Positions 44,312 through 58,791 of a DNA stretch of 64,000 nucleotides are shown piece by piece (the stretch's first letter is position 1; each line of letters begins with the position of its first letter). The position numbers were made by a program, and so were the translations under genes. The stretch comes from Pseudonocardia broussonetiae (lineage in GTDB: Bacteria > Actinomycetota > Actinomycetes > Mycobacteriales > Pseudonocardiaceae): the NCBI RefSeq assembly GCF_013155125.1, contig NZ_CP053564.1, positions 1,061,501-1,125,500 of the forward strand. Reading direction: 5' to 3'. Below the pieces are notes generated by a model. That model had not been told where the DNA came from and searched no databases. It saw nothing but the letters and a program-made list of their open reading frames with translations.

Positions 44312-44464
44312 CACGCTCTCCTCCTCCTCGTGGTCACGACACCGCAGCTCACGCGTCCGTTCGGGAAACGGCACGCGCTGGAGCCCGTTCGCGGTGTGAC
44401 TCCAGGGTCTCCCGGTGACGTCCTGCCGGTCCACGTCCACGACGTGCCACATCGGAGGGCGGGA

Positions 44465-44483
44465 GTTGCCGGATGTCGGCAAC
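44465..44483. promoter_or_regulatory. inverted repeat upstream of the PucR-family gene
   Basis: GTTGCCG (44465-44471), GATGT, CGGCAAC (44477-44483) is a perfect 7-bp-arm palindrome 43 bases before the PucR-family start and within the 214-base divergent gap. A TACAGT box follows at 44492. It may be an autoregulatory operator. Nothing else is recognisable in this gap. Confidence 0.45.
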
Positions 44484-44525
44484 ATCGCCACTACAGTGCC
44501 CGCACCGGGGCGGAGGGAGGACGAC

Positions 44526-45734
44526 GTGGCCGATCGCGGTCCGCGGCGCCCGGCCGGCGGGGGCCCCGACGACTCGTGGCTGGCCGACGTGGCGCGCGAC
44601 GCCTCCCGCGACGTCGGCGGTGTGCCCGTCGAACTGCTGGGCGACTACCTCCCGCTGCTCGCCGACGCGGCAGCCTCCGGGCGCCGGCCCGACGCCCGCG
44701 AGCTCGACGGCGTCGGTCTGCTCGGGCGGCGCGCCGCCGAGCTGGGCGTGTCGGCGGGCAGCGCCGTGCAGCTGTACCTGTCCGCGGCGCGGCGGCTGTG
44801 GCAGCAGCTGCCCGCGGTGGTCCGCTCGCGCGACAGCGAGGTCGTCCGGACCGCGGCCGCCGCCGTCCTGCACGTCGTCGACGAGGCCGTCGCGCGCCTG
44901 GTCGACGGCTACACCGACGCCCGACGCCAGATGGTGCGCTGGGAGGAGACGCTGCGCCGCGAGTTCATCGATGACCTGCTGCGCGGCGACGCCGACGTCG
45001 CCGGGCTGGCCGAGCGCGCGGTGCCGTTCGGCCTCGACATGGGCCGCCACCACCAGATCGCGCTGGCGGCGCCGTCAAGCCGCTCCGACGAGGCGGGGGC
45101 GGCGGTCGGCGCGCTGGAGCGTGCCGTCGTGCAGTGGGGCGGGGACCGCGACGTGCTCGTCGCCACGAAGGACGGCTGGATCGTCGCGATGACGCCGGCC
45201 GACACCGACGTGCCCGGCGCGGGCACCCTCGGCGACCTCCTGCTCGCCGAGCTCGGCCGCCTGCCCCGCGGGGAGCCGTGGCGCGTCGCCGTCGGCCGCC
45301 CCTACCCGGGCTCCTACGGCGTCGCCCGCTCCTACGAGGAGGCCCGCGAGGGCCTGACGATGGCCGTGCGCCTGGACCTGGACAACCCCCTGATCCGGGC
45401 CGAGCAGCTGCTCGTCTACCGGGTCCTGCTGCGCGACCAACCGGCCATCGCCGACCTGGTGCAGTCGGTGCTGGGGCAGCTGGTGCGCGCCCGCGGCGGC
45501 GCCGGACCCCTCCTCGCGACCCTCGACGCCTACTTCGCCGCGGGCGCCGTCACCGCCGAGACCGCCCGCCGGCTGCACCTGTCCGTCCGCGCGGTCACCT
45601 ACCGGCTCAACCGCATCGCGACGCTCACCGGCTACGACCCCACCGACCCGGCGCAGCGCTTCACCGTGCACGCCGCGGTGCTGGGGGCGAAGCTCCTGGG
45701 CTGGCCGCAGCGCGACCTGCCGGCGGACCGGTGA
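44526..45734 (+). CDS. PucR/CdaR-family transcriptional regulator
   Basis: This 402-residue regulator starts at the GTG at 44526 with GGAGGGAGG upstream. The N-terminal helical sensor-like region has LLGDYLPLLADAAASG, VGLLGRRAAELGVSAGSAVQLYLSAARRLWQQL and VDEAVARLVDGYTDARRQM, a RsbT-antagonist-like helical bundle. A GGDEF-like CdaR domain follows (WRVAVGRPYPGSYGVARSYEEAREGLTMA), then a C-terminal PucR helix-turn-helix (LDAYFAAGAVTAETARRLHLSVRAVTYRLNRIATLTG). Such regulators control purine, amino-acid or aromatic catabolism genes. It stands upstream of the nicotinate locus, with 94 bases to the MarR gene, but a functional link is not shown. Confidence 0.92.
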   Translation: MADRGPRRPAGGGPDDSWLADVARDASRDVGGVPVELLGDYLPLLADAAASGRRPDARELDGVGLLGRRAAELGVSAGSAVQLYLSAARRLWQQLPAVVRSRDSEVVRTAAAAVLHVVDEAVARLVDGYTDARRQMVRWEETLRREFIDDLLRGDADVAGLAERAVPFGLDMGRHHQIALAAPSSRSDEAGAAVGALERAVVQWGGDRDVLVATKDGWIVAMTPADTDVPGAGTLGDLLLAELGRLPRGEPWRVAVGRPYPGSYGVARSYEEAREGLTMAVRLDLDNPLIRAEQLLVYRVLLRDQPAIADLVQSVLGQLVRARGGAGPLLATLDAYFAAGAVTAETARRLHLSVRAVTYRLNRIATLTGYDPTDPAQRFTVHAAVLGAKLLGWPQRDLPADR

Positions 45735-45828: not shown

Positions 45829-46338
45829 TTGTCCGAGGCCGCACCGCTCGGCGAGGCGGGACCGAGGCGGGGTCGACGGGTGGCGCTCAGCCCGCCGGTC
45901 GACCTGACGGCCGCTCCCGGCTACGGCGCCCGTCGCATGTACCAGGCGTACCTCGCGGCGTGGACCCGTCACGTCGACCCCGTCCTGACCGGGCCCCAGT
46001 TCGCGGTGCTGTCCGCGATCCGGGCCTACCCCGACACCGACCAGAGCTCGCTCGCCGGCGCCGTCGCCCTCGACACCTCGACCATGGCCGACGTCTGCCG
46101 GCGCATGGAGCGGCGCGGCCTGATCCGGCGGTCGGAGTCGTCGCAGGACGCGCGGCGCAAGCTGCTGTCCCTGACCGACGCCGGTGCCGAGGCCCTCGCC
46201 ACGACGTTCGACCGGACGCGGGCGCTGGACGAGGCGCTGCTCGCGCACCTGCCCGAGGAGGACCGGGCGCGCATCGCCGAGCTGCTCAACGACCTCGGCC
46301 GCGCCTGGGAAGCCGTCGCCGACGGTGAGCTGGAGTAG
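45829..46338 (+). CDS. MarR-family regulator of the nicotinate locus (NicR-like)
   Basis: This 169-residue MarR protein carries YGARRMYQAYLAAWTRHVDPVLTGPQFAVLSAIRAYPDTDQSSLAG, recognition helix LDTSTMADVCRRMERRGLIRRSESSQDARRKLLSLTDAG (with the wing DxRRxxLxLT) and C-terminal dimer helices. The start is unsure: TTG 45829 (LSEAAPLGE) has AAGGAGG ten bases upstream and is chosen. Pseudomonas NicR is a MarR repressor that responds to 6-hydroxynicotinate, and the position at the head of the cluster suggests the same role. The repeated promoter element at 46371 and 57014 is its likely binding site. Confidence 0.88.
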   Translation: MSEAAPLGEAGPRRGRRVALSPPVDLTAAPGYGARRMYQAYLAAWTRHVDPVLTGPQFAVLSAIRAYPDTDQSSLAGAVALDTSTMADVCRRMERRGLIRRSESSQDARRKLLSLTDAGAEALATTFDRTRALDEALLAHLPEEDRARIAELLNDLGRAWEAVADGELE

Positions 46339-46370
46339 CAGGACCTTCCGAGATCGTCCCCCGAAAACTC

Positions 46371-46399
46371 TTGCGTATCCGGATAGTACGTGTTCGGAT
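46371..46399 (+). promoter_or_regulatory. nicotinate regulon promoter/operator, copy 1
   Basis: -35 TTGCGT (46371-46376), 17-base spacer, -10 TCGGAT (46394-46399). The spacer carries TATCCGGATA and CGTA-N9-TACG. The block is nearly identical to one before the NicX gene at 57014-57042 (24 of 29 positions agree), with the same spacing. It drives the monooxygenase/transporter/hydroxylase operon. Confidence 0.7.
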
Positions 46400-46429
46400 T
46401 AGTTGACGAGGACGGAAGGGGTGGTCGAC

Positions 46430-47698
46430 GTGGCACCGAGCCAGTCGTTCGAGGTGACCGTGGCGGGCGGTGGACTGGGCGGGCTCACCACCGCGCTGGC
46501 GCTTCGCCAGAAGGGCCTCCGGGTCACCGTGCTGGAGGCCGCACCGCAGCTGGGCGAGGTGGGCGCCGGCATCCAGACCGCCCCCAACGCCAGCCGGATC
46601 CTGGTGGGCCTGGGTCTGCGAGGAGCGCTGCAGCGGATCCACACCGAGCCCCAGGACCAGGTCCGGCGGCGGTGGGCCGACGGCAGCGTCATCGCGTCCC
46701 TGCCGCTGGCCCGGCGGGTCGTCGACCAGTACGGCGCGCCCTACTGGCACTACCACCGCGCCGACCTGCACGCGGTGCTCCTGGAGGCGTGCCTGGACCC
46801 GGCGGGCCCCGGCCCGGTCGTGGCCGTGCACACCGACGCGCAGGTGGTGGAACTGGACCGCAGCGACGCCGAGCGCCCGGTGGCGGTCACCGCGCGCGGT
46901 GACCGGTACGCCGCCGACGTCCTGGTCGGCGCCGACGGCATCCGCTCCGCGGTGCGCGACCTGGCCGGGTTCGACGACACCCTCGTGTTCTCCGGCGAGA
47001 TGGCCTACCGGGCGCTGATCCCGGGCGACTCGATCGTCGCCGACCCCGCCACGCGCTTCCTGGCCGACCGGTTCCAGTCGACGATCTGGTACGGGCCGGA
47101 CAAGCACCTGGTCCACTACATGATCCGCGGTGGGGAGCACCTCAACGTCGTGGCGATCGTGCCGTGCACCGCGGAGGTCCGGCGCGACTGGAGCGCACCG
47201 GCGTCGGCGGAGGACATGGTCGCCGACTTCGGTGACTGGGACGACCGCGTCGGCGCCATGCTGTCCAAGGCGAAGGACGACGTGTCGGTGTGGGCGCTGT
47301 TCCGCCGCCGGCGCGACCCGGTCTGGGTCGACGGCCGGGTCGCACTGCTGGGCGACGCCTGCCACGCGATGCTCCCCTACCAGGCGCAGGGCGCGTCCCA
47401 GGCGATGGAGGACGCCGCGGTGCTGGCCGAGGAGCTCGGTTCGGTGAGCCGCAACGGCGTCGACGGCGCGCTGGCGCGCTACGTCCACCGGCGGGCCAAG
47501 CACGCGGGCATGGTGCAGGACGCGTCGCTGCGCAACATGGACTTCTACCACCTCCCCGACGGCCCGGAGCAGCGCGAGCGCGACGAGAAGCTGCGCCGGT
47601 TCGACGGCGAGTCCGACGTCTCCTACGACTGGCTGTGGAACGGCAGTCCGCTGCACGACCCCGACAACGAGGCACTCACCTACCAGTTCGCACGGTGA
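46430..47698 (+). CDS. nicC: FAD-dependent aromatic hydroxylase, probable 6-hydroxynicotinate 3-monooxygenase
   Basis: This group A flavoprotein monooxygenase of 422 residues has the GxGxxG motif VAGGGLGGLTTALAL, the DG motif VLVGADGIRS near residue 165 and the GD motif ALLGDACHAMLPYQAQGASQAMEDA near 305. The family includes salicylate, 3-hydroxybenzoate and 6-hydroxynicotinate hydroxylases. Overall it looks as close to the salicylate/3-hydroxybenzoate type as to Pseudomonas NicC. The NicC role, decarboxylative hydroxylation to 2,5-dihydroxypyridine, is inferred from the NicX, NicD, NicF and NicE genes around it. GTG 46430 with GGAAGGGG eight bases upstream is preferred to TTG 46403. First gene of the operon after promoter copy 1. 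Confidence 0.78.
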   Translation: MAPSQSFEVTVAGGGLGGLTTALALRQKGLRVTVLEAAPQLGEVGAGIQTAPNASRILVGLGLRGALQRIHTEPQDQVRRRWADGSVIASLPLARRVVDQYGAPYWHYHRADLHAVLLEACLDPAGPGPVVAVHTDAQVVELDRSDAERPVAVTARGDRYAADVLVGADGIRSAVRDLAGFDDTLVFSGEMAYRALIPGDSIVADPATRFLADRFQSTIWYGPDKHLVHYMIRGGEHLNVVAIVPCTAEVRRDWSAPASAEDMVADFGDWDDRVGAMLSKAKDDVSVWALFRRRRDPVWVDGRVALLGDACHAMLPYQAQGASQAMEDAAVLAEELGSVSRNGVDGALARYVHRRAKHAGMVQDASLRNMDFYHLPDGPEQRERDEKLRRFDGESDVSYDWLWNGSPLHDPDNEALTYQFAR

Positions 47699-47709
47699 CG
47701 GGAGCAGGT

Positions 47710-49092
47710 ATGCGTACCGGAGATCAGATCGTCCAGGACCTCCCCTGGCGCTGGAGCGTGCAGGGCAAGGTCTTCATCATCGGTGGCCTCGGCTACATGT
47801 TCGACGCCTGGGACGTCGCGCTCAACGGCTTCCTGACCCCGCTGCTCGGCGCGGAGTTCGACCTGAGCACCACCGAGCGGGGGCTCGTCGCGACGGCCAA
47901 CCTCGTCGGCATGGCCGTCGGCGCGGTCGCCTGGGGGACGATCGCGGACCGGATCGGCCGCAAGCGGGCGTTCAGCATCACACTGCTGATCTTCGCGCTG
48001 TTCTCGGCGCTGGGCGCGCTGTCGCCCAACATCGAGGTCTTCTTCCTGCTGCGCTTCCTCGCCGGCATCGGCCTGGGCGGCTGCATCCCGGTCGACTACG
48101 CGATCGTCAGCGAGTTCTCACCGCGCAAGCACCGGGGCCGCGTGCTGTCGGCCATGGACGGGTGGTGGCCCATCGGGGCCACGCTCGCCGGGGTGAGCGC
48201 GACGCTGCTGGTGCCGGTCGACGGCAACTGGCGCTGGATGCTGCTCCTGATGATCCTCCCGGCGCTGCTGCTCTTCTGGGCCCGTCGCGGTATCCCGGAG
48301 TCGCCCCTGTTCCTGGTCCGCAAGGGCCGCGAGGACGAGGCCCGCGCCGTGATCGACGACCTCGTCCGGCGGACGGGCGCGGCGCCGGAGCCGTACTCCG
48401 TGCCGGCCCCGGTCGTCGAGGACACCAGGGGTGGCGCCGCCCGCGCCGCGGTCGACCAGCTGCGCCGGGTGTGGGCGTTCAGCCCCCGCATCACGTCGGT
48501 GGCCTGGGCGTTGTTCATCTCCGTCATGCTCGTCTACTACGCCGCGTTGAGCTGGATGCCCTCGATCCTGCGGGCCGAGGGCTTCGGCGAGGTCGCCGCG
48601 TTCGCGTCGACGACGCTCATGAACGGGCTGGGCATCGTGGGCGTCCTCATCGCCGTCCTGGTGGTGGAGCGGGTCGGGCGCAAGCGCGTCATCGCCGTCG
48701 CGGGTCCGCTGGCCGCGGTCACCCTGGTCGCGTTCGCGCTTCTGCTGGGCACCCCGTGGGTCGCGCTCGTCGCGCTCGGGGCGTTCGGGATGCTCGCGCT
48801 GATCGTCATCCCGGTGATGTACGCCTACGTCTCCGAGCTCTACCCGACCGAGCTGCGGGCGAGCGGGTTCGGCTGGGCGTCGTCGTCGAGCCGGGCGGTC
48901 ACCGGCTTCGCCCCGCTGCTGTTCGGCAGCGTGCTGTGGCCGGTGCTGGGCCTGCCGCTGACCTTCGCCCTGCTGGGGGTGCTGGTCGTGGCCGCGGTGG
49001 CCTGGATGTGGGTCGCCGCCCCGGAGACCGCGGGCCGCGAGCTCGACCACATCGTCGCCGTGGAGCCCGGCGACAAGGCCGCGGCGCGGTGA
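47710..49092 (+). CDS. MFS transporter, probable nicotinate importer
   Basis: This 460-residue major facilitator protein has 12 predicted helices in two halves around a central loop at about residues 200-245. It shows the AAHS/sugar-porter motifs: Asp-rich first helix (GYMFDAWDVALNGFLTPLL), loop motif GTIADRIGRKRAF, RFLAGIGLGGCIPVDYAIVSEF, the mid-loop PESPLFLVRKGREDEA and second-half VERVGRKRVIAV. Aromatic-acid:proton symporters share these features. Its place between NicC and the hydroxylase subunits suggests uptake of nicotinate or a related pyridine carboxylate. ATG 47710 follows GGAGCAGGT. Its stop overlaps the next GTG (GTGA). Confidence 0.87.
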   Translation: MRTGDQIVQDLPWRWSVQGKVFIIGGLGYMFDAWDVALNGFLTPLLGAEFDLSTTERGLVATANLVGMAVGAVAWGTIADRIGRKRAFSITLLIFALFSALGALSPNIEVFFLLRFLAGIGLGGCIPVDYAIVSEFSPRKHRGRVLSAMDGWWPIGATLAGVSATLLVPVDGNWRWMLLLMILPALLLFWARRGIPESPLFLVRKGREDEARAVIDDLVRRTGAAPEPYSVPAPVVEDTRGGAARAAVDQLRRVWAFSPRITSVAWALFISVMLVYYAALSWMPSILRAEGFGEVAAFASTTLMNGLGIVGVLIAVLVVERVGRKRVIAVAGPLAAVTLVAFALLLGTPWVALVALGAFGMLALIVIPVMYAYVSELYPTELRASGFGWASSSSRAVTGFAPLLFGSVLWPVLGLPLTFALLGVLVVAAVAWMWVAAPETAGRELDHIVAVEPGDKAAAR

Positions 49093-49973
49093 AACCGGCC
49101 GCCTTCAGCTACCACCGCGCCCGTGACGTCACGGGCGCGGTGGCGCTGCTGTCCGAGCTGGCCGCCGCGGGCGAGGACCCGAAGCTGCTCGCCGGCGGCC
49201 AGAGCCTGGTGCCGATGATGAGCTTCCGGCTCGCCCGGCCGTCGGCGCTGGTCGACCTGGGCGGGCTGCGCCGCCGCGGTGAGCTGACCGGGATCACCCC
49301 GCAGGCCGACGGGTCGCTGCGCATCGGAGCCCTGACCACCCACCACGAGGTCGAGACCTCCACCGCGACCGGCCGCGACTACCGCGTGCTCCGCCGGGCC
49401 ATGCGCTGGGTCGGGCACCTGCCGATCCGCACTCGCGGCACCGTCGCGGGCAGCCTGGTCCACGGCGACGCCACCGCCGAGTGGTGCCTGCTCGCGCTCC
49501 TGTGCGACGCGCGGATCGTCGCCGAGGGGCCCGGCGGCCGCCGCGAGATCCGGGCCGAGGAGATGTTCCACGGCTTCTACGCCACCGAGGTGGAGCCCGA
49601 CGAGCTGGTCACCGAGGTCGTGTTCACCCGCCCGGCACCGCACGCCGCGCTCACCGAGTTCGCCCAGCGCCACGGCGACTTCGCCGTCGTTGACGCGGCC
49701 GTCGCGCTGGACCGCGCCCCGGACGGCACCCTCCTCGGCGGACGGGTCGTGCTCGGCGGGGTGGCCCCCGCGCCGGTCCGCGTGCCCGTCGCCGAGGCCG
49801 AGCTGGACGGCGGGCCCGCCTCGTTCGCGGCCTGCGCCGACGCCGCCGCGGCAGGGGTCGACCCGCCCGGCGACGCGCACGGCAGCAGCGACTACCGGCG
49901 GCACCTGGTCCGCACCCTCGTCACCCGGGCCTGCGAGCAGGCCTGGGACGGAGCGAAGGAGTCCCACCCGTGA
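49089..49973 (+). CDS. molybdenum hydroxylase FAD subunit (CoxM-like), probable nicotinate hydroxylase
   Basis: This 294-residue FAD-binding subunit of the xanthine-dehydrogenase superfamily shows the FAD-contact motif LLAGGQSLVPMMSFRLARPS near residue 33 and the second motif RTRGTVAGSLVHGDATAEW near 118, a variant of TIGGSLAHADP.AE. A CO_deh_flav_C domain follows (GDFAVVDAAVALD, GGRVVLGGVAPAPVRVPVAE). It passes electrons from the iron-sulfur subunit to FAD and then onward. GTG 49089 overlaps the transporter stop and its own end overlaps the large subunit start, so stoichiometric synthesis is expected. Substrate specificity lies in the large subunit. Confidence 0.9.
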   Translation: MKPAAFSYHRARDVTGAVALLSELAAAGEDPKLLAGGQSLVPMMSFRLARPSALVDLGGLRRRGELTGITPQADGSLRIGALTTHHEVETSTATGRDYRVLRRAMRWVGHLPIRTRGTVAGSLVHGDATAEWCLLALLCDARIVAEGPGGRREIRAEEMFHGFYATEVEPDELVTEVVFTRPAPHAALTEFAQRHGDFAVVDAAVALDRAPDGTLLGGRVVLGGVAPAPVRVPVAEAELDGGPASFAACADAAAAGVDPPGDAHGSSDYRRHLVRTLVTRACEQAWDGAKESHP

Positions 49974-52447
49974 GCCGGGAGTTCCCCACCGCCACCGGGG
50001 CGCCCGAGCCGGTCGGCGAGACCCGCGTCGACGGGCACGCCGTGCCCAGCCCCGCCACCGGGCCGCGGTCGCACGCCGGCGCCGCCCGCTGGGTGGGCGT
50101 GTCCGTGCCCCGCCGGGAGGACCCCCGGCTCGTCGCCGGCCGCGGCCGCTTCCTCGACGACATCGACCCGCCCGGCGTGCTGCACGCCGCGTTCGTCCGC
50201 TCCACGGTCGCCCACGGCGCGCTGACCGGGATCGACCTGGAGCCGGTCCGGGCGGTGCCCGGCGTCGTCGCCGCGTTCGACGCCGCCGACCTGGACCTGG
50301 CCGACATCGTCGCGCTGCTCGACCGGCCGCCCGAGGAGTTCGTCCCGACCGCGATGCCCGTGCTCGCCCGCGACCGCGTCCGGTTCGTCGGGGAGCCGGT
50401 GGCCGTCGTCGTGGCGCGGGACCCCTACGCCGCCGAGGACGGGGTCGAGGCCGCGGTCGTGCGGATCACCGCCGAGGAGGCGGTGGTCTCCGAGGAGACC
50501 GCGCTGGCTCCCGGCGCGCCGCTCGTGCACGCCGACGCGGCCGCGAACACCCTCGTCGACGTGTCGATGTTCGCGACCGAGGGCATCGACGAGGTCTTCG
50601 CGGACGCCGCGTGCGTCGTCGAGGTCGACACCCGCACCGGCCGCCAGAACGCGCTGCCGCTGGAGACCCGCGGCGCGCTCGCCTCCTGGGACGACCGCGA
50701 CGACCAGCTGCTGCTGCAGACCTGCACGCAGATCCCGCACCAGGTGCGGACGCTGGCCGCCCGCTGCCTGCGGGTCGACGAGCGCACGATCCGCGTGACC
50801 GTCCCCGACATGGGCGGCGGCTTCGGCCAGAAGTGCGTGGTCGGCCGGGAGGAGATCGTCGTCGCCGCCGTGGCGCGCCGGCTCGACCGGCCCGTCAAGT
50901 GGATCGAGGACCGCCGGGAGTCGCTGACCGCGTCGTTCCTGGCGCGCGAGCAGCACTACCGCACCCGCGCCGCGTTCGACGCCGACGGGACCGTCCTGGC
51001 CCTCGACGTCGACGTCGTCTGCGACATGGGCGCCTACTCCTGCTACCCGTTCACCGCCGGCATCGAGCCGCTGATGGCTTCGGCGGAGATGCCGTCGGTC
51101 TACCGGGTCCCCGCCTACCGGGTGCGCGCCCGCGCGATCACCACGAACAAGGCCCCGACGGCGCCCTACCGCGGGGTCAGCCGCCCGCAGTACGTCATGG
51201 CGATGGAGCGGGTGATGGAGCGTGCGGCGCGCGAGCTGGGCATGGACCCGCTCGACGTCCGCCGCCGCAACCTCATCACCGACTTCCCCTACACCGGTGT
51301 CAACGACGTCACCTACGACCCCGGCACCTACCGGGAGTCGCTCGACCTCGCCGAGAGCACGCTGCGCGAGGAGGGCTGGTTCCGGTTCCGCGACGAGGCC
51401 GCGGCGCAGGGCCGGGCGGTCGGCATCGGGTTCTGCTGCTTCAGCGAGCGGACCGGGTACGGCTCCGACGCCTTCGCCAAGCGGCGGATGACCGTCGTGC
51501 CCGGCTTCGACATCTCCGAGATCCGGATGGACACCTCCGGGTCGGTGGTGGTCACCAGCGGCACGCTCAACCACGGCCAGTCCCACGAGACGACGATGGC
51601 CCAGATCGTCGCGGACCGGCTCGGGATCGACATCGCGCAGGTCAAGCTGCGCCAGGGCGACACCGAGCGGATCTCCTACGGCTGGGGCACCTTCGCCTCC
51701 CGCTCGATCACCGTCGGCGGATCCGCGGTCGCCGCGGCGTCGACCCGCCTCGGCGTCCTGCTGTGCCGGATCGCCGCGCACCTGATGGACGTCACCGAGG
51801 ACGACGTCGAGCTCGACGGCGAGGGTGGGGTGGTGCTGCGCACCGACCCGGCGCGGCGGATCCCGTTCACCGAGATCGCCGACGTCGCGTACCTGCGGTC
51901 GAACCTGCTGCCCAAGGACGTCGAGCCGGGCCTGAGCGCCACCGCGAGCTTCGACGCCCCGGGCGACGGCACGTTCTCCAACGCCACGCACGCCGTCGTC
52001 GTCGAGTGCCACGCGGGCACCGGCCGGGTCGAGATCCTGCGCTACGCCTGCGTCGAGGACTGCGGAGTGGTCATCCACCCCCAGGTCGTCGACGGGCAGT
52101 GCCGGGGCGGGATCGCCCAGGGCATCGCCGGAGCACTGTTCGAGGAGGTCACCTACGACGCGAACGGTGAGCCCTCGGCCGCGAGCTTCATCGACTACAA
52201 GGTGCCCACCGCCACCGAGATCCCCGACATCACCGTCGCCCACCTCGAGACGCCCTGCGCGTTCACCGAGAACGGGGCCAAGGGCGCCGGCGAGGGCGGC
52301 ACCATCGGCGCGCCGGCCGCCGTGCTCAACGCCGTCAACGACGCGCTGCGCCACACCGGGGTCGAGCTGGACGCGACCCCCGTCCACCCCCAGACCGTCG
52401 TCGAGGCCCTGCTGCGGAAGGAGCCGGCGTGCACGACCGCCACCTGA
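49970..52447 (+). CDS. molybdenum hydroxylase large subunit (CoxL-like), probable nicotinate hydroxylase
   Basis: This 825-residue molybdopterin-binding subunit has the aldehyde oxidase/xanthine dehydrogenase a/b hammerhead (GRGRFLDDIDPPGVLHAAFVRS) and the molybdopterin contacts VPDMGGGFGQKC, APYRGVSRPQYVMAME, LNHGQSHETTMAQIVAD and GWGTFASRSITVGGSA. The catalytic Glu sits in GAKGAGEGGTIGAPAAV near the C-terminus. The CO dehydrogenase active-site loop AYRCSFR is replaced by PYRGVSR, so it is not a CO dehydrogenase. Hydroxylation of nicotinate at C6 is inferred from the adjacent NicC, NicX, NicD, NicF and NicE genes. About 35 extra N-terminal residues precede the first conserved strand. Its 3' end overlaps the small subunit gene by 19 bases. 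Confidence 0.88.
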   Translation: MSREFPTATGAPEPVGETRVDGHAVPSPATGPRSHAGAARWVGVSVPRREDPRLVAGRGRFLDDIDPPGVLHAAFVRSTVAHGALTGIDLEPVRAVPGVVAAFDAADLDLADIVALLDRPPEEFVPTAMPVLARDRVRFVGEPVAVVVARDPYAAEDGVEAAVVRITAEEAVVSEETALAPGAPLVHADAAANTLVDVSMFATEGIDEVFADAACVVEVDTRTGRQNALPLETRGALASWDDRDDQLLLQTCTQIPHQVRTLAARCLRVDERTIRVTVPDMGGGFGQKCVVGREEIVVAAVARRLDRPVKWIEDRRESLTASFLAREQHYRTRAAFDADGTVLALDVDVVCDMGAYSCYPFTAGIEPLMASAEMPSVYRVPAYRVRARAITTNKAPTAPYRGVSRPQYVMAMERVMERAARELGMDPLDVRRRNLITDFPYTGVNDVTYDPGTYRESLDLAESTLREEGWFRFRDEAAAQGRAVGIGFCCFSERTGYGSDAFAKRRMTVVPGFDISEIRMDTSGSVVVTSGTLNHGQSHETTMAQIVADRLGIDIAQVKLRQGDTERISYGWGTFASRSITVGGSAVAAASTRLGVLLCRIAAHLMDVTEDDVELDGEGGVVLRTDPARRIPFTEIADVAYLRSNLLPKDVEPGLSATASFDAPGDGTFSNATHAVVVECHAGTGRVEILRYACVEDCGVVIHPQVVDGQCRGGIAQGIAGALFEEVTYDANGEPSAASFIDYKVPTATEIPDITVAHLETPCAFTENGAKGAGEGGTIGAPAAVLNAVNDALRHTGVELDATPVHPQTVVEALLRKEPACTTAT

Positions 52448-52941
52448 TCACGCTGACCGTCAACGACGAGGAGCACGAGGTCGTCGTCGAGGCCCGGCGC
52501 ACCCTGCTCGACGTGCTGCGCCACGACCTGCGGCTGACCGGCGCGCACGCCGGCTGCGAGCACGGCGTCTGCGGGGCGTGCACCGTCCTCGTCGACGGCG
52601 CCCCGGCGCGCGCCTGCCTGCTGTTCGCCGTGCAGGCCGAGGGCAGCGCGCTGCACACCGTGGAGTCGCTGGCCGCGCCGTCGGGCGAGCTGTCGGACCT
52701 GCAGCAGGCCTTCAGCCGCCACCACGGGCTCCAGTGCGGCTTCTGCACGCCCGGGTTCCTCATGCTGGCCGAGGGCTGGCTCGCCGAGCGCGCCGCCACG
52801 GGGGCCGGCGAGCCCGACCGCGAGGAGGTCCGCGAGGTGGCGTCGGCCAACCTCTGCCGCTGCACCGGCTACCAGACCATCGTCGACGCGATCGCCGACA
52901 CCGCCCGCACCCGCCTCGCAGCACCTGGGGAGACCGCGTGA
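52429..52941 (+). CDS. molybdenum hydroxylase 2Fe-2S subunit (CoxS-like)
   Basis: This 170-residue iron-sulfur subunit carries a plant-type ferredoxin cluster motif (AGCEHGVCGACTVLVDGAPARAC) and the helical second-cluster motif (GLQCGFCTPGF then SANLCRCTGYQTIVDAI), giving all eight cluster cysteines. It relays electrons from the molybdenum centre to the FAD subunit. The GTG start at 52429 lies inside the large-subunit gene, and its stop shares bases with the CoxG-like start (GTGA). The length is normal for the family. With the FAD and molybdenum subunits it completes a heterotrimeric hydroxylase. Confidence 0.93.
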   Translation: MHDRHLITLTVNDEEHEVVVEARRTLLDVLRHDLRLTGAHAGCEHGVCGACTVLVDGAPARACLLFAVQAEGSALHTVESLAAPSGELSDLQQAFSRHHGLQCGFCTPGFLMLAEGWLAERAATGAGEPDREEVREVASANLCRCTGYQTIVDAIADTARTRLAAPGETA

Positions 52942-53609
52942 TCCTGGACAACGAGCTCACCGTCGCCGCCCCTCCGGACGAGGTGTTCGCGCTGGTCAAC
53001 GACGTCGAGCGGGTGGCGACCTGCCTGCCCGGCGCCGTCCTCGACGGCCGCGACGGCGACACCTACCGCGGCCGCGTCACCGTCAAGGTCGGCCCGATCC
53101 GGGCGGCCTACGGCGGCACCGTCCGCTTCCTCGACGTCACCCCCGACGAGCGGCGGCTCCGGATCGCCGCGAGGGGCGCCGACAGCCACGGCAGCGGCGA
53201 CGCCGAGGCGGAGGTCGAGCTGTCCGTCGTGCCCGACGGGGCGGGGTCGATCCTGCGCCTGCACACCGACCTGGTCATCCGCGGCAAGATCGCCCAGTTC
53301 GGCAAGGGCGCCATCGTGGCGGTGTCGAACCGGCTGCTCGACCGGTTCGCGCAGAACCTGGCGGCGCAGCTCGACGGGTCGGCCGCACCGGCGTCCCCGG
53401 AGCGCGCCGCAGCGGCGCCGTCCTCCCCCACGGCCGGGCCGGCGGACCGCGACGGCGCCGTCGACGGGCTGGGGGTGCTGCTGCCCCCGAACGCGGGCCG
53501 GATCGCCGCCGCGGCCGCCGCGCTGGCCGTCGCGTTCCTGCAGGGATGGATGGCCGGGCGGCTGCGGGGCCAGAGGATGCTGATCGAGGAGCTGCGCCGT
53601 GACCGCTGA
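52938..53609 (+). CDS. CoxG-like protein (SRPBCC fold) with C-terminal membrane anchor
   Basis: This 223-residue protein has a CoxG/SRPBCC domain in residues 1-150 (LDNELTVAAPPDEVFALVNDVERVATCLPGAVLDG, GRVTVKVGPIRAAYGGTVRF, KGAIVAVSNRLLDRFAQNLAAQL). A Pro/Ala-rich linker and a hydrophobic helix near the C-terminus follow (AAAAAALAVAFLQGWMAG). In CO dehydrogenase systems CoxG recruits the enzyme to the membrane, and the anchor here would do the same for the nicotinate hydroxylase, linking it to the respiratory chain. That is inference from the family. It overlaps both neighbours (4 and 11 bases). Confidence 0.85.
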   Translation: MILDNELTVAAPPDEVFALVNDVERVATCLPGAVLDGRDGDTYRGRVTVKVGPIRAAYGGTVRFLDVTPDERRLRIAARGADSHGSGDAEAEVELSVVPDGAGSILRLHTDLVIRGKIAQFGKGAIVAVSNRLLDRFAQNLAAQLDGSAAPASPERAAAAPSSPTAGPADRDGAVDGLGVLLPPNAGRIAAAAAALAVAFLQGWMAGRLRGQRMLIEELRRDR

Positions 53610-54252
53610 GAGCACCGACGCCGTCTACGCCCGGGCCGGGTTCGGGGCCGCCGTCCCGCGCGGGCCCCGCCCGGTGCTGGTCGTCGTCGACCTGACCCGG
53701 GGGTTCACCGAGCCGGGGTTCCCCAGCGGTGCCGAGCTCGGTGGGGTCGTCGCGGAGAACGCCGCACTGGCCGACGCCGCCCACCGCGCCGGCGTGCCGG
53801 TGGTGTGGACCTCCATCGCCTACACCGGCGCCGAGGCCGACGGCGACGCGGTCGCGTGGCTGCGCAAGGCGCCCGGGATGCGCGCGCTGCGCGAGGGGTC
53901 GCCGGCGGTCGCGCTCGACCCGCGGCTGCCCGTGCTCGCCGGCGACCACACGATCGTCAAGAAGGGCGCGTCCGCCTTCCACGGCACCGGCCTCGCCGCC
54001 CTGCTGTCCGGGCTCGGCGCGAGCACCGTCGTCGTGACCGGCGCGACCACCAGCGGCTGCGTCCGGGCCACCGCGGTCGACAGCGTCACCGCGGGCTTCG
54101 ACACGCTCGTCGTCGGCACGGCGTGCGGTGACCGCGCGCAGGCCCCGCACGACGCCGCGCTGTTCGACCTGCAGGCCAAGTACGCCGACGTCGTCACCCT
54201 CGACGACGCGCTCGGCTACCTCGGCACCGACCGGGAGGCGGCCCGTGCCTGA
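53599..54252 (+). CDS. nicF: isochorismatase-fold amidohydrolase, probable maleamate amidohydrolase
   Basis: This 217-residue cysteine hydrolase has the full catalytic triad of the family: Asp in VLVVVDLTRGFTEPGFP, Lys in TIVKKGASAFHGT, and Cys154 in VTGATTSGCVRATAVDSVTAGF with the preceding cis-peptide region. NicF-type maleamate amidohydrolases show the same TTSGCVRATVVDS and the GF(T)xP stretch, whereas isochorismatases and nicotinamidases differ in flanking residues. It converts maleamate to maleate and ammonia, the fifth step of the pathway. Nicotinamidase is the main alternative; it has a metal-binding DxHxxxH that I do not see here. Overlaps CoxG upstream and NicD downstream. Confidence 0.85.
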   Translation: MTAESTDAVYARAGFGAAVPRGPRPVLVVVDLTRGFTEPGFPSGAELGGVVAENAALADAAHRAGVPVVWTSIAYTGAEADGDAVAWLRKAPGMRALREGSPAVALDPRLPVLAGDHTIVKKGASAFHGTGLAALLSGLGASTVVVTGATTSGCVRATAVDSVTAGFDTLVVGTACGDRAQAPHDAALFDLQAKYADVVTLDDALGYLGTDREAARA

Positions 54253-55105
54253 CGCACCCGACCCCCGCGTCCTGACCCAGGCCGCGCTCGCCGACCTCGC
54301 CGACGTCCCGGCCACCAGCCGCTGGGTCCGGGCCTCGGGCCTGGCCCTGCACGTCCTGGACTACGGCGGCGACCGGACGCCGGTGCTCGTGCTGCCCGGC
54401 ATCACCAGCCCGGCGATCACCATGGACTTCGTGGCCCGCCGGCTGACCGACCTGGTCCGGCCCGTCCTGCTCGACGTCCGGGGCCGCGGCCTGTCCGACT
54501 CCGCCCCCGGGCCCGGCGGCTACGCGCTGGCGGACTACGCCGACGACGTCGAGGCCGTCGTGACCGGCCTCGGGCTCGACCGCCCGGTGCTGCTCGGGCA
54601 CTCGATGGGCGCCCGCATCGCGGCGGCCGCCGCGGCCCGCGGGCGGATCGCCGTGCGCGGCACCGTGCTGGTCGACCCGCCGATGAGCGGGCCCGGGCGC
54701 GGTCCGTACCCGACCACCCTGGAGGCGTTCCTCGGTCAGCTCGACCAGGCCCGCGGGGTCACCGACGCCGACGAGGTCGCCCGCTCCTGGCCCTCCTGGC
54801 CGCGCGCGGAGCAGGCCCTGCGCGCGCGCTGGCTCGGGTCCTGCTCGGCGCGGGCGATCGCCGAGACCCACGCCGGGTTCGAGTCGGAGGACTTCTTCGA
54901 CACCTGGCCCGCCGTCCCGGCCCCCACGGTGCTCGTCCACGGAGGGGCCAGCCCCGTGGTGACCGCCGACGGTGCCCGGGAGGCGGCCGCGACCCACCCC
55001 GGCGCCGCCGTCGTGGAGGTGCCGGGCACCGGCCACATGGTGTTCTGGGACGACCCGGACGCCGCCGTCACCGCGGTCCGCTCCGCGCTGGCCGGCATGG
55101 CGTAG
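54245..55105 (+). CDS. nicD: N-formylmaleamate deformylase (alpha/beta hydrolase)
   Basis: NicD removes formate from N-formylmaleamate. The 286-residue protein matches Pseudomonas NicD in several long motifs: VLVLPGITSPAITMDFVARR, LLDVRGRGLSDSAPG with YALADYADDVEA, nucleophile elbow GHSMGARIAA (S120), VDPPMSGPGRGPYP and GTGHMVFWDDPDA with the catalytic His. The SGPGR and GITSPA segments are distinctive, so the call is firm. GTG 54245 overlaps the NicF stop by eight bases. It is the last gene of the plus-strand operon; a 17-bp perfect hairpin follows after nine bases. Confidence 0.88.
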   Translation: MPDAPDPRVLTQAALADLADVPATSRWVRASGLALHVLDYGGDRTPVLVLPGITSPAITMDFVARRLTDLVRPVLLDVRGRGLSDSAPGPGGYALADYADDVEAVVTGLGLDRPVLLGHSMGARIAAAAAARGRIAVRGTVLVDPPMSGPGRGPYPTTLEAFLGQLDQARGVTDADEVARSWPSWPRAEQALRARWLGSCSARAIAETHAGFESEDFFDTWPAVPAPTVLVHGGASPVVTADGAREAAATHPGAAVVEVPGTGHMVFWDDPDAAVTAVRSALAGMA

Positions 55106-55114
55106 GACGCGCAC

Positions 55115-55152
55115 GCGAACGGCCCCGCACCCCCCGGTGCGGGGCCGTTCGC
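55115..55152. terminator. bidirectional intrinsic terminator between the nicotinate operons
   Basis: GCGAACGGCCCCGCACC (55115-55131), loop CCCC, then its exact complement (55136-55152), a 17-bp perfect GC-rich stem lying between the convergent NicD and NicE genes, nine and seven bases from their stop codons. No U-run on either side. Its position argues for termination of both transcripts. Confidence 0.8.
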
Positions 55153-55159
55153 CGTTCCG

Positions 55160-55951
55160 TCAGGCCGCCGCGCGGCCGGGGTCGGTGTACCGGCCCGACA
55201 GCAGCTCCCCCGCACCCGGCACGCTCGTCGCCAGCCCGAGCTCGGACAGGATCCGGAACGTCGTCGCCGTGGCCGCCGACAGCACCGGCAGGCCGCAGTC
55301 CTGCTGCACCGCCTCGACCGCGGCGAGCGAGGGCATCTGCACGCAGGCCGAGAGCACGAGGGCGTCGGCGCCGGTGAGGTCGAGCGCGCGCCAGTGCTCG
55401 CGCAGGTCGGCCGGGTCGAGCCGGGCGACCGCGAGGTTGTCGGGCACCTCCAGCGACAGGGAGTCCACGACCTGCACGCCGGCGTCCTGCAGGTAGGCCA
55501 CGACCGCCTGCGTCAGGGGCTGCATGTAGGGGGTGATCAGCGCGACCCGCTTCGCCCCGAGCGCGGCGATGCCCGAGAGCAGGGCGCCCGCGCTGGAGAC
55601 GACCGGGGCGTGCGAGCCCTCGGCGCGCAGCACCGCGGTGATCGAGTCCTCGGCGGTGCAGTGGAACCCCGGTCCCTGCGCCATGATCGCGACCAGGCAG
55701 GCGGTGGCCACGACGTCGGGTCGGGCGTCGGCGAGCTCGGCGGCGGCCCGGTCGGCCTGGGCGTTCATCGCACGCAGCTGCTCGGGGGTGACGTGCTGCA
55801 TGCGGGCGCGGGCGGCGTGGAAGACGAACCGGTCGCCCGGGTCGGCCTCCTCCCGGGCGCGCAGCATCCGGGGCAGCTCGGTCTCCATGGTGAGGTTCGA
55901 GCTGGGGACGATCATCCCGATGTGGTGGTCGGTCCCCGCCTGTCCCGTCAT
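55160..55951 (-). CDS. nicE: maleate cis-trans isomerase
   Basis: NicE isomerises maleate to fumarate, which enters the TCA cycle. The 263-residue Asp/Glu-racemase-fold protein begins HHIGMIVPSSNLTMETELPRML, the characteristic N-terminus. It has one catalytic Cys in VVATACLVAIMAQG near residue 84 and the second in LVLSACVQMPSL near 198, with ALGAKRVALITPYMQPL in between. The two Cys residues and MIVPSSN distinguish it from glutamate racemases and arylmalonate decarboxylase. ATG 55951 overlaps the NicX stop by four bases, so it is the second gene of the minus-strand operon driven by promoter copy 2. Confidence 0.9.
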   Translation of the reverse strand: MTGQAGTDHHIGMIVPSSNLTMETELPRMLRAREEADPGDRFVFHAARARMQHVTPEQLRAMNAQADRAAAELADARPDVVATACLVAIMAQGPGFHCTAEDSITAVLRAEGSHAPVVSSAGALLSGIAALGAKRVALITPYMQPLTQAVVAYLQDAGVQVVDSLSLEVPDNLAVARLDPADLREHWRALDLTGADALVLSACVQMPSLAAVEAVQQDCGLPVLSAATATTFRILSELGLATSVPGAGELLSGRYTDPGRAAA

Positions 55952-56994
55952 CGCTTGGCCGCCGGGCGCATCTCGGGCACGGTGAGCTGGCCGGCGTCGA
56001 CGATCAGCTCGTCGTCGAGGAGCAGGCTGTTGCCGCGCATCGGGATGTCGAAGTGGCAGGCGGTGTCGTTGGGCCCGCCGAGCTCGTTGTTGGGGCCGAT
56101 GGAGAACATGACGTTGCCGTAGAAGCTGCGCAGCTCCATGCCCATGCCCCCGCCGAACTGGGTCAGGCCGTGCCAGTGGGCGCGCTCGTCGAGTCCCCAC
56201 CCGACGTGGGACATGCCGTAGCCGCGGGGATCCTCGAAGCTCTCGATGTAGGAGCGCAGCAGGTCCGCGTCCAGGCCGGTGGAGCCGGCGCCGCCGCGGA
56301 TGTCGCGGATGAACCCGGCCTCGATGGTGATCTCGACGGGGGTCTGGACGTAGGTGTTGAACGGCAGCAGCACGTCACCGGGGGCCAGGACGATCTTGCC
56401 GTCGACGCCGTCGTCGGCGCCGCCGGTGAACACGAACGCGGCGGGCCAGTGGTCCCAGCGCCCGGGCTGGTCGGTGTAGCCGTACTCGCTCATCGTCGGG
56501 TAGACGCCCAGGCGGTAGGTGACGTCGGTGCCGTGCGGGCTGGTGATCCGCATGGTCTGGGCCTTGGCGAGCAGTTCGGCGCCGATCTCGACGCGCTCGC
56601 GCAGCTCGGTGGTCGGCATCAGCCGGGCCAGCAGCTCCGGGGGCTCGACCGCGGTCAGGATCCGGGTACCGGCGTCCTGGATGGCGAACTGCTCCTTGCT
56701 GAACAGCAGGAACGTGCAGTCCACCACCATGTCGACAGCCTGGAGCGCCTCGACGGCCAGCGGCAGCGACCCGAGCCCCGAGTCCCCCACCGCCCAGGCG
56801 CCGGCCGCGCTGACCGGCGAGGGGAGGCGCATGTGGTACGCCGCCGCGCCCAGCTTCTGCGCCGCCCACAGGAACGCGTCCGCGTACTCCGCCCGCTCGC
56901 CGCCCCTGGTCAGGACGACGACCGTCTCACCCTCGTGCACGCCCGACAGGCGCAGCTGCTCCAGGCAGATGTCGTTGAACAGGTTCTGGTCCAT
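55948..56994 (-). CDS. nicX: 2,5-dihydroxypyridine 5,6-dioxygenase
   Basis: NicX opens the ring of 2,5-dihydroxypyridine with O2 to give N-formylmaleamate, using iron(II) in an M29-aminopeptidase-like fold. The 348-residue protein aligns along its length with Pseudomonas NicX: VVDCTFLLFSKEQ, TRILTAVEPPELLARLMPT, MSEYGYTDQPGRWDHWPAAF, DVLLPFNTYVQTPVEI, GYGMSHVGWGLDERAHW, SFYGNVMFSIGPNNELGG and CHFDIPMR, the last with the His-x-Asp metal ligands. ATG 56994 has GGAGG eight bases upstream. It heads a two-gene operon with NicE and is preceded by promoter copy 2. Leucyl aminopeptidase annotation would be wrong for this subgroup. Confidence 0.93.
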   Translation of the reverse strand: MDQNLFNDICLEQLRLSGVHEGETVVVLTRGGERAEYADAFLWAAQKLGAAAYHMRLPSPVSAAGAWAVGDSGLGSLPLAVEALQAVDMVVDCTFLLFSKEQFAIQDAGTRILTAVEPPELLARLMPTTELRERVEIGAELLAKAQTMRITSPHGTDVTYRLGVYPTMSEYGYTDQPGRWDHWPAAFVFTGGADDGVDGKIVLAPGDVLLPFNTYVQTPVEITIEAGFIRDIRGGAGSTGLDADLLRSYIESFEDPRGYGMSHVGWGLDERAHWHGLTQFGGGMGMELRSFYGNVMFSIGPNNELGGPNDTACHFDIPMRGNSLLLDDELIVDAGQLTVPEMRPAAKR

Positions 56995-57013: not shown

Positions 57014-57042
57014 ATCCGAGCACGTATTATCCGAGTACGCAA
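57014..57042 (-). promoter_or_regulatory. nicotinate regulon promoter/operator, copy 2
   Basis: Read on the minus strand: -35 TTGCGT (57042-57037), 17-base spacer with CGTA-N9-TACG, -10 TCGGAT (57019-57014). It lies about 20 bases before the NicX start codon and agrees with copy 1 at 24 of 29 positions, including both boxes, ACGTG and the spacing. Some homology continues on either side (AACT upstream). Confidence 0.7.
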
Positions 57043-57070: not shown

Positions 57071-57460
57071 TCAGCCGGTCCGCGCGCCCGGACCCTCGGG
57101 ATGGGCGAGGTCGTAGGCCCGCGACAACGTCTTCGGGACGACCAGGCGCCAGGCGTCGACGACGAGCTCGCGGGCCTCGACCGGGTCCAGCGCGGCGAGG
57201 GTCGCGTGGACCCGGTTGAACCGCAGGTCCGACGTCGACGGCAGGTGGAACCTGTTCGGGTCGCCCGCGACGAGCGCCTCCCGCTCCTCCTTCGGGAACG
57301 CGAAGCCCAGCACGGTCTCGTCCAGCGAGATCGCCACGTACACGATCTGCCCGACGCGGAACTCGAGCCGCCCGCGCACGTGCACCTCGTACGAGCGCTC
57401 CAGCCCGGCACCCAGCGGCCGGAGGTCCGCGACCCTGGCGCCCCGCCCGTTCCCGTCCAC
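57071..57460 (-). CDS. MmcQ/YjbR-family protein
   Basis: This 129-residue protein of the YjbR (cytosine-methyltransferase-associated) fold carries SYEVHVRGRLEFRVGQIVYVAIS, LGFAFPKEEREALVAGDPNRFHLPSTSDLRFNRVHATLAALDPVEARELVVDAWRLVVPKTLS, matching the C-terminal helix ELLTDAWR..APK. The family's function is unknown; some members bind DNA. The GTG at 57460 has AAGGGGGG nine bases upstream and is chosen over ATG 57520, which lacks a ribosome binding site. It is on the same strand as the ROK gene upstream (85-base gap) and near the NicX promoter, but shows no link to nicotinate metabolism. Confidence 0.8.
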   Translation of the reverse strand: MDGNGRGARVADLRPLGAGLERSYEVHVRGRLEFRVGQIVYVAISLDETVLGFAFPKEEREALVAGDPNRFHLPSTSDLRFNRVHATLAALDPVEARELVVDAWRLVVPKTLSRAYDLAHPEGPGARTG

Positions 57461-57545
57461 CGAGATGCACCCCCCTTGATCGCCCGTGCCGGGAAGACGC
57501 AGGGGCGGAGCGGGAGTCATCGGTCGTCGGCGCGTCGCCCCGGAG

Positions 57546-58706: not shown

Positions 58707-58728
58707 GGCCGAAGCCTAGTAAGGACTC

Positions 58729-58786
58729 TTGCTTGAACGGCCGCCAGCCTCTACCGTCCTTTGGTAAGGAGTCCTCACCAAAGGAG
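58729..58786 (+). promoter_or_regulatory. promoter with inverted-repeat operator before the DUF1479 gene
   Basis: -35 TTGCTT (58729-58734), 17-base spacer, -10 TACCGT (58752-58757). A perfect 9-bp inverted repeat TCCTTTGGT (58757-58765) / ACCAAAGGA (58777-58785) with an 11-base centre starts at the -10 box and its right arm covers the AAAGGAG ribosome binding site. TAAGGA also recurs at 58719. Probable ROK repressor site at the transcription start; a ribosome-binding-site hairpin is possible if transcription starts earlier. Confidence 0.55.
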
Positions 58787-58791
58787 CTGGC

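Follow-up and report, generated by a model that had tools for sequence, protein, structure and literature searches.

A predicted MarR-controlled gene cluster for the conversion of nicotinate to fumarate in Pseudonocardia broussonetiae

A stretch of 64,000 nucleotides from Pseudonocardia broussonetiae (the window; contig NZ_CP053564.1, positions 1,061,501 to 1,125,500) was analysed within the 7.29-Mb genome with respect to a gene cluster at window positions 45829-56994. We consider it likely that this cluster is a catabolic regulon, controlled by a MarR-family regulator, that takes nicotinate to fumarate. In the proposed pathway a major facilitator superfamily (MFS) protein would import nicotinate, and a molybdenum (Mo) hydroxylase of three subunits (M, L and S) would put a water-derived oxygen on C6, beside the ring nitrogen, giving 6-hydroxynicotinate. 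An FAD-dependent monooxygenase (gene fmo, protein FMO) would then put a hydroxyl in place of the carboxyl group, which lies para to the hydroxyl just added, releasing CO2 and yielding 2,5-dihydroxypyridine. By homology, NicX would cleave the ring to N-formylmaleamate, NicD would remove formate, NicF would remove ammonia and NicE would convert maleate to fumarate. Homology argues for the last four of these six enzymatic steps (steps 3-6) while the enzymes that we infer for steps 1 and 2 appear to have been recruited independently of NicAB and NicC. The cluster is predicted to work as nic does but falls outside the Pseudomonas-type nic group, because its FMO and hydroxylase are not orthologous to NicC and NicAB.

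A first-pass annotation of the window, made from the sequence, had described an apparently complete nicotinate-to-fumarate pathway in one locus. All of the genes it named were recovered at their positions, and Pfam confirmed the MarR regulator, the FAD monooxygenase, the MFS transporter and the three Mo-hydroxylase subunits. Its assignments of NicX, NicD, NicF and NicE agree with the matches to solved structures given below, although sequence by itself leaves NicF more doubtful than the other three. Its list of genes lacked one member, coxG, which lies between the S gene and nicF; coxG and the operator described below are newly added here.

The lower pathway

The lower pathway, from 2,5-dihydroxypyridine to fumarate, is firmly assigned by homology to the same kinds of enzyme as in Pseudomonas. 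The sole match of NicX (55948..56994, minus strand) among solved structures was 2,5-dihydroxypyridine 5,6-dioxygenase 7cn3 (288 bits, 44% identical). All four Fe ligands (H265, S302, H318 and D320) are retained, as are R293, L104, E308 and the substrate-pocket residues E177 and H189, while H105 is changed to Phe and C76 to Val. PMC7910607 reports that in NicX the four Fe ligands are essential, that H105A is dead and that the engineered H105F and H105M variants are active, so Phe at position 105 is compatible with function in the window NicX. The same Phe is found in NicX of a nic-type locus on a Phyllobacterium plasmid (L051), to which the window NicX is 73.5-75% identical.

NicD (N-formylmaleamate deformylase; 54245..55105, plus strand) matched 4l0c, named 'Deformylase', at 156 bits and 3kxp second at 75 bits. 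It is 39% identical to its Phyllobacterium counterpart, with which it has the GHSMG motif and a C-terminal GHM in common. NicE (maleate cis-trans isomerase; 55160..55951, minus strand) matched maleate cis-trans isomerase 4fq7 at 253 bits, the next kind being the putative maleate isomerase 2xec at 230 bits; identity to the Phyllobacterium counterpart is 52%, and the Cys motifs ACLVAIMA and SACVQMPSL occur in both. For NicF (maleamate amidohydrolase; 53599..54252, plus strand) the top match was 4l07 ('Hydrolase, isochorismatase family', 175 bits), which we take to be NicF itself. The protein is 41% identical to its isochorismatase-family counterpart in the Phyllobacterium locus, and Asp, Lys and Cys motifs are common to both. 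We assume that the motifs named for NicD, NicE and NicF are catalytic.

The dioxygenase was not of one type in all related loci. In locus L052 it is divergent (38% identical to the window NicX and 41% to 7cn3), and the divergent type also occurs in Streptomyces and Sphaerisporangium loci. In the two divergent proteins inspected, those of L052 and L115, the Fe ligands are retained and E177 is replaced by Gln. As most of the remaining cluster is unchanged around it, the ring-cleaving dioxygenase seems to be exchangeable.

The two predicted entry enzymes

FMO (46430..47698, plus strand) is predicted, from homology, alignment and tree, to be a decarboxylative 6-hydroxynicotinate 3-monooxygenase that is not a NicC ortholog. 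Its start is probably the GTG at 46430, preceded by a GGAAGGGG motif, and not the TTG at 46403 chosen mechanically; the resulting 422 residues are the usual length of FMO among the 120 homologs listed. The best matches among solved structures were decarboxylative vanillate 1-hydroxylase 8x38 (256 bits), the unnamed 8r2t (253 bits) and 4-hydroxybenzoate decarboxylase 8gsm (243 bits), which we take to be a 1-hydroxylase. Weaker matches included tropone 2-monooxygenase (197 bits), the probable salicylate monooxygenase 4bjy (168 bits) and the NicC structures 8uiq (168 bits) and 5eow (165 bits). The score to 8twg, also named 6-hydroxynicotinate 3-monooxygenase, was only 27 bits, which indicates that proteins of that name are not all of one kind.

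FMO was rejected as a NicC ortholog on identity, residues and tree position. It is 41% identical to 8x38, 38% to 8gsm and 32% to 5eow (377 columns), while the Phyllobacterium FMO reaches 598 bits against 5eow. At positions 47, 202, 211, 215 and 302, which we take to be those of the NicC active site and whose letters fit 5eow at an offset of 23, the alignment gives H, C, H, Y and H in the Phyllobacterium protein as well as in 5eow. The window FMO has Q, S, H, Y and Y there, so that three of the five are changed. The same positions hold Q, M, H, Y, Y in 8x38 and Q, I, H, Y, Y in 8gsm; 8uiq differs from 5eow by Gln for His at position 47 in its printed sequence. In a maximum-likelihood tree of 92 rows the 40 fmo rows formed one clade (support 100/100), which together with Streptomyces locus L127 was sister to 8gsm, 8x38 and 8r2t (44 rows, 100/95), and NicC stood in a separate group (34 rows, 100/98). 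The tree carries a long-branch warning, which includes the pairing of 8gsm with 8x38 and of L127 with the fmo clade. It took 79 of the 80 named-genome loci introduced below; the exception, L124, has its tblastn match in pieces, below the 320-residue limit.

The nearest named solved relatives of FMO are thus 8x38 and 8gsm, sister to its clade and with the Q/H/Y/Y residues in common. We know of no link of either to pyridine catabolism. The substrates of these two, the sister-group members that carry an activity name, are para-hydroxylated benzoates, and 6-hydroxynicotinate is the aza-analogue of 4-hydroxybenzoate with the same para geometry. Use of 6-hydroxynicotinate by FMO would accordingly be a matter of chemistry and not of orthology. 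A nicotine-derived 3-acylpyridine, with FMO cleaving the side chain as HspB does, would follow the same logic, in which a Mo-hydroxylase hydroxylates C6 and removal of the C3 substituent then gives 2,5-dihydroxypyridine. HspB (7da9) scored only 27.7 bits against FMO, far below the decarboxylative hydroxylases and NicC, and no other nicotine-type gene was found among the cluster genes; a nicotine-derived substrate is extremely unlikely.

The hydroxylase genes follow on the plus strand as the FAD subunit M (49089..49973; Pfam FAD_binding_5 and CO_deh_flav_C), the large subunit L (49970..52447) and the 2Fe-2S subunit S (52429..52941; Pfam Fer2_2 93.7 bits, Fer2 39.4 bits). L, a predicted nicotinate 6-hydroxylase, is of the quinoline 2-oxidoreductase type. 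Against solved structures it scored 543 bits to quinoline 2-oxidoreductase (1t3q), 418 bits to CoxL, and 131 and 98 bits to nicotinate dehydrogenase 3hrd. The only Pfam domains of L are Ald_Xan_dh_C, MoCoBD_1 and MoCoBD_2, the FAD subunit being separate. As a three-subunit enzyme with its own FAD subunit it was rejected as a two-part nicotinate hydroxylase of the NicAB type. The GE of its KGAGEGG motif aligns with GE in the large subunit of quinoline 2-oxidoreductase (QorL) and in CoxL 8uem. L carries YRGVSR where 1ffu has YRCSFR, which we take to be the active-site Cys motif of carbon monoxide dehydrogenase. That enzyme was rejected as an identity for L, since the Cys motif is absent and CoxL 8uem falls in another clade.

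In a tree of 23 rows, in which 9 of the 33 L proteins from fmo loci were joined by 8 of 14 places from the genome itself (the window L counted twice) and 3 from loci like the 3-hydroxypyridine (hpd) clusters, the L proteins of fmo loci formed one clade (100/100). This clade grouped with QorL, on a long branch, and one other L of the same genome (89/91), while CoxL and five further L proteins of that genome fell together (100/100) and the three hpd-like ones were separate (100/100). The first-pass annotation had proposed such trees as a check; they put FMO outside the NicC clade and L nearest QorL, with NicC as the sole characterised pyridine-pathway enzyme of the suggested kinds included. Its claim that every step is covered holds in that each step has an enzyme of fitting chemistry, and does not hold in the sense of orthology to NicC and NicAB. 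The genome has 14 places that match MoCoBD_1, so the presence of a hydroxylase by itself says little and its clustering is what is informative. Mo-hydroxylases attack carbons adjoining a ring nitrogen, as quinoline 2-oxidoreductase also does. Quinoline 2-oxidoreductase is the nearest solved relative of L and has the conserved GE region in common with it, but its substrate differs; nicotinate as the substrate of L is suggested by chemistry and not by orthology.

The CoxG/SRPBCC-like protein (52938..53609, plus strand; Pfam COXG 65.6 bits) has a C-terminal hydrophobic segment at residues 189-207 with a modest mean Kyte-Doolittle value of 1.68. According to PMC11962113, CoxG homologs serve as the anchor of carbon monoxide dehydrogenase, and the same role has been proposed for them with 3-hydroxypyridine dehydrogenase. 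By analogy, the CoxG-like protein probably tethers the predicted nicotinate hydroxylase to the membrane.

The combination of a Mo-hydroxylase and a separate CoxG/SRPBCC partner next to the same lower pathway is also what an hpd cluster would offer, in which the hydroxylase yields 2,5-dihydroxypyridine directly. We assume that hpd clusters are defined by phosphoenolpyruvate (PEP)-utiliser and pyruvate phosphate dikinase (PPDK) genes. Hpd-like actinobacterial clusters were observed at L041, L042 and L048/L049, with L proteins 36-38% identical to the window L, and P. oroxyli (G188) seems to carry both types of cluster, split over contig ends. In the hpd-like relatives there is a PEP-utiliser and PPDK_N pair, confirmed with Pfam for L041 alone, but no such pair was found in the window cluster. 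Their L proteins are distant and form the separate clade of three noted above, and fmo, present in the window, was not seen in the stretches of L041, L042, L048 and L049. An hpd cluster is accordingly hardly credible here.

A cluster for picolinate (pic) was considered very unlikely. The pic cluster of Alcaligenes faecalis JQ135 and Bordetella bronchiseptica RB50 resembles the window cluster in its lower pathway and in a three-gene dehydrogenase, encoded by picA1A2A3; PMC10142695 gives picB1-B4 as the 6-hydroxypicolinate monooxygenase and PicC as an amidohydrolase-family decarboxylase. Every gene from marR to nicX could be assigned (NicX without a Pfam match), and none is of the picB1-B4 or PicC kind. 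The genome holds 20 Amidohydro_2 matches, none of them in the window and the nearest about 96 kb away. The picA1A2A3 product is presumably a Mo-hydroxylase, which would make it resemble M, L and S. With the marker genes for picolinate and 3-hydroxypyridine not found in the cluster, nicotinate, named in the first-pass annotation, is still the best candidate for the starting substrate.

Linkage, operator and distribution

The claim of a single locus is well supported, as is the lower pathway. Clustering of these genes recurs among relatives that belong to several families, far beyond chance. NicX homologs (E<=1e-30) were found in 18 of 298 genomes of the order and 22 of 394 genomes of the class, and FMO orthologs (E<=1e-100) in 13 of the 298 and 7 of the 394; as the window genome is in both sets, the totals are 39 and 19 genomes. 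In all 19 genomes with fmo a NicX homolog lies on the same contig, within 8.3 kb in 17 of them and at 12.3 kb in G247 and 20.0 kb in G188, where NicX is a piece at the contig end. When named genomes were scanned with 11 aligned FMOs, at least 562 loci were obtained, the best 80 of which were used. In 39 of these, which partly overlap the order and class genomes (e.g. L110 and L111), FMO is at least 60% identical. At an identity of at least 40%, matches in the 39 loci numbered 33 each for L, M, S and marR, 34 each for nicF and nicD, 32 for NicX, 30 for mfs, 28 for nicE and 25 for coxG. The 32 NicX loci comprise 15 of the window type and 17 of the divergent type. Seven loci are without NicX, and five of these have it elsewhere in the genome, which brings the loci with NicX in the genome to 37 of 39. 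Three of the six loci without L are cut by contig ends (L087, L108 and L124); L114, L115 and L117 are not so explained.

The regulator gene (45829..46338, plus strand) starts with TTG downstream of GAAGGAGG and matched Pfam MarR at 47.6 bits in a slightly longer frame. Its product, which has 27% identity to the Phyllobacterium MarR protein, is a putative cluster repressor, NicR-like in role. Two near-identical stretches lie upstream of fmo and of nicX. The pattern TATYCGGATARTACGTGYTCGGAT of the 24-bp operator, allowing up to 3 mismatches, occurs at two places in the whole genome: before fmo (TATCCGGATAGTACGTGTTCGGAT; 46376..46399, plus strand) and before nicX-nicE (TACTCGGATAATACGTGCTCGGAT; 57014..57037, minus strand), with 0 and 1 mismatch. 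The reversed pattern, used as a control, occurs at none. The operator forms an imperfect palindrome, the usual architecture of MarR sites.

In each of seven near relatives (L030-L036) a copy with 0 mismatches to the 20-base core pattern precedes nicX, and in all except L033, where they are apart, nicX and fmo belong to a single gene run. With up to 4 mismatches allowed, 36 of the 39 loci have matches, and each of the 49 matches lies upstream of fmo, nicX, nicE or marR at a distance of no more than 450 bp. The control set, formed by the remaining 41 of the 80 named loci, had 1 match, and the reversed pattern had 0 in both sets. Among the best sites of the 36 loci the core GTGYTCGGATTA hardly varies, which is partly due to the sites having been selected by the same pattern. 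We predict two transcription units, fmo-mfs-M-L-S-coxG-nicF-nicD and nicX-nicE, that would be switched together by MarR through its putative binding to this operator.

Several observations weigh against the nicotinate assignment. At the level of single proteins, H47, C202 and H302 of NicC are not retained in FMO (Q, S and Y), although H211 and Y215 are, and activity on 6-hydroxynicotinate is therefore not transferable from NicC. NicF is only 10 bits closer to 4l07 than to N-carbamoylsarcosine amidohydrolase 26st (165 bits), a near-tie that makes its assignment lean on the neighbourhood. The specificity of the MFS protein for nicotinate is only predicted. Among the genomes, 20 of the 39 with NicX have no FMO at E<=1e-100. 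L102 (Pseudonocardia thermophila) and L118 (Rhodococcus koreensis) have fmo, hydroxylase and nicF and no NicX in the genome at E<=1e-20, although the assemblies may be incomplete. In the Streptomyces loci L114, L115 and L117 no Mo-hydroxylase was found in the stretch examined, so nicotinate hydroxylation does not accompany fmo in every locus. No operator match with up to 4 mismatches was found in L102, L116 and L118, the best matches in Streptomyces, Nonomuraea and Sphaerisporangium loci have 1-4 mismatches, and the near relatives are not independent tests as the pattern was derived from them and the window. The favoured reading as a whole draws its evidence from genes and sequence comparison.

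The three Streptomyces loci bear most directly on a different substrate. The fmo gene there adjoins a nicX of the divergent type, further lower-pathway genes (nicF and nicD in L114; nicF, nicD and nicE in L115; nicD in L117) and a MarR gene. Fmo and the lower-pathway module can evidently stand alone, which fits FMO acting after a hydroxylase and also fits a different entry substrate; in these loci it may be 6-hydroxynicotinate or another hydroxy acid. The cluster in the window could likewise serve another 3-substituted or hydroxylated pyridine acid, either with the hydroxylase acting on a nicotinate-like compound or with FMO acting on, for example, 5-hydroxypicolinate and a second substrate left to the hydroxylase. 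An FAD enzyme acting on 5-hydroxypicolinate presumably has a precedent in HpaM of Alcaligenes faecalis JQ135. Loci L147, L153 and L163 (Paenalcaligenes, Azospirillum and Burkholderia), in which an FMO of a third clade lies beside NicX, NicD, NicE and NicF with no L, M or S match in the stretch examined, are possibly 5-hydroxypicolinate clusters and point the same way. However, L is present in 33 of the 39 fmo loci, mostly in the order fmo-mfs-M-L-S, and a 5-hydroxypicolinate route would not need a hydroxylase. Attack beside the ring nitrogen would, from general knowledge, not give 5-hydroxypicolinate from picolinate, and the FMOs of L114, L115 and L117 form a subclade of their own (100/100). 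Another pyridine acid is thus unlikely, while being the most serious of the alternatives to nicotinate.

Other gene combinations were observed around nicX and fmo. A Zn-alcohol dehydrogenase gene follows in L115 and L117, and L117 also has a metallo-beta-lactamase-fold gene. Some NicX loci without fmo have other entries to 2,5-dihydroxypyridine, namely the hpd-like L041, the UbiX/UbiD-type L043 and L044 with another FAD enzyme. In L043 and L044 matches to NicX, NicD, NicE and NicF lie beside a remote FAD monooxygenase, joined in L043 by UbiD-family and flavoprotein (UbiX-like) genes, and these are possibly further routes into 2,5-dihydroxypyridine. The NicX cluster on a Salipiger plasmid (L050) has close to it two genes annotated as LLM flavin-dependent oxidoreductases (one confirmed) and two annotated as flavin reductases; the features listed for it include no Mo-hydroxylase.

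The remaining member of the fmo unit is the MFS gene (47710..49092, plus strand), whose product is like aromatic-acid/H+ symporters (TIGR00895 244 bits, under the 418.55-bit cut-off; Pfam MFS_1 185 bits) and is predicted to take up nicotinate. None of the NCBIfam families listed for the eleven cluster proteins reached its curated cut-off; for fmo and mfs the list comprised the 25 best families out of 72 and 54, respectively. The genes on either side were rejected as members. A PucR-family regulator directly upstream of marR (44415-45734) and, past nicX, the YjbR, ROK and Gig2-like genes (57071-60093) were all absent from the tblastn matches (E<=1e-10) listed for loci L030-L053 (24 loci) and L087-L166 (80 loci). 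The Gig2-like protein (PF07350, 450 bits) lies at 58792-60093, past the ROK-family gene.

Comparison with known clusters and significance

We take the nic cluster of P. putida KT2440 to comprise NicX, NicD, NicE, NicF, a MarR regulator and the two-part cytochrome-linked hydroxylase NicAB. The nic-type cluster compared here was that of the Phyllobacterium plasmid, which like the window has NicX, NicD, NicE and NicF homologs and a MarR gene. In place of M, L, S and CoxG it has a 1182-residue molybdopterin protein and a 2Fe-2S protein, the FAD enzyme of the window is not NicC, and the order of the genes differs; no operator match was found in it with up to 5 mismatches. The first-pass annotation had described a gene order and a type of hydroxylase unlike those of the Pseudomonas nic cluster, and this holds against this one locus. 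The putative nicotinate cluster of Bacillus niacini (PMC4256190) is also Gram-positive and has two genes like nicE and nicF and a pair of Mo-oxidoreductases. It differs in having TetR and IclR regulators and mostly genes unlike nic, and the 2,5-dihydroxypyridine route is not claimed for it.

A characterised actinobacterial cluster of the kind described here was not found among the papers listed by the literature searches, as judged by title and opening of the abstract in a library with few subscription papers. Protein searches with two of the cluster proteins returned only generic or unrelated names among the best 120 matches listed for each. The database names of the FMO and L homologs among these matches include 'FAD-dependent monooxygenase', 'salicylate hydroxylase' and 'carbon-monoxide dehydrogenase large subunit'.

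Taken with somewhat less confidence than the regulon itself, but still favoured, is the view that Actinobacteria built a nicotinate pathway of their own. It would combine a CoxG-anchored hydroxylase of the quinoline 2-oxidoreductase type, an FMO of the hydroxybenzoate 1-hydroxylase branch that arose independently of NicC, and a ring-cleaving module in which lineages have swapped the dioxygenase, with a single conserved MarR operator governing the whole. If true, this would identify genes of nicotinate catabolism in Actinomycetota together with their regulator and operator, and it would explain the proteins now listed under the three names above. It would also provide a second origin of the decarboxylative hydroxylation of 6-hydroxynicotinate, for comparison with NicC.

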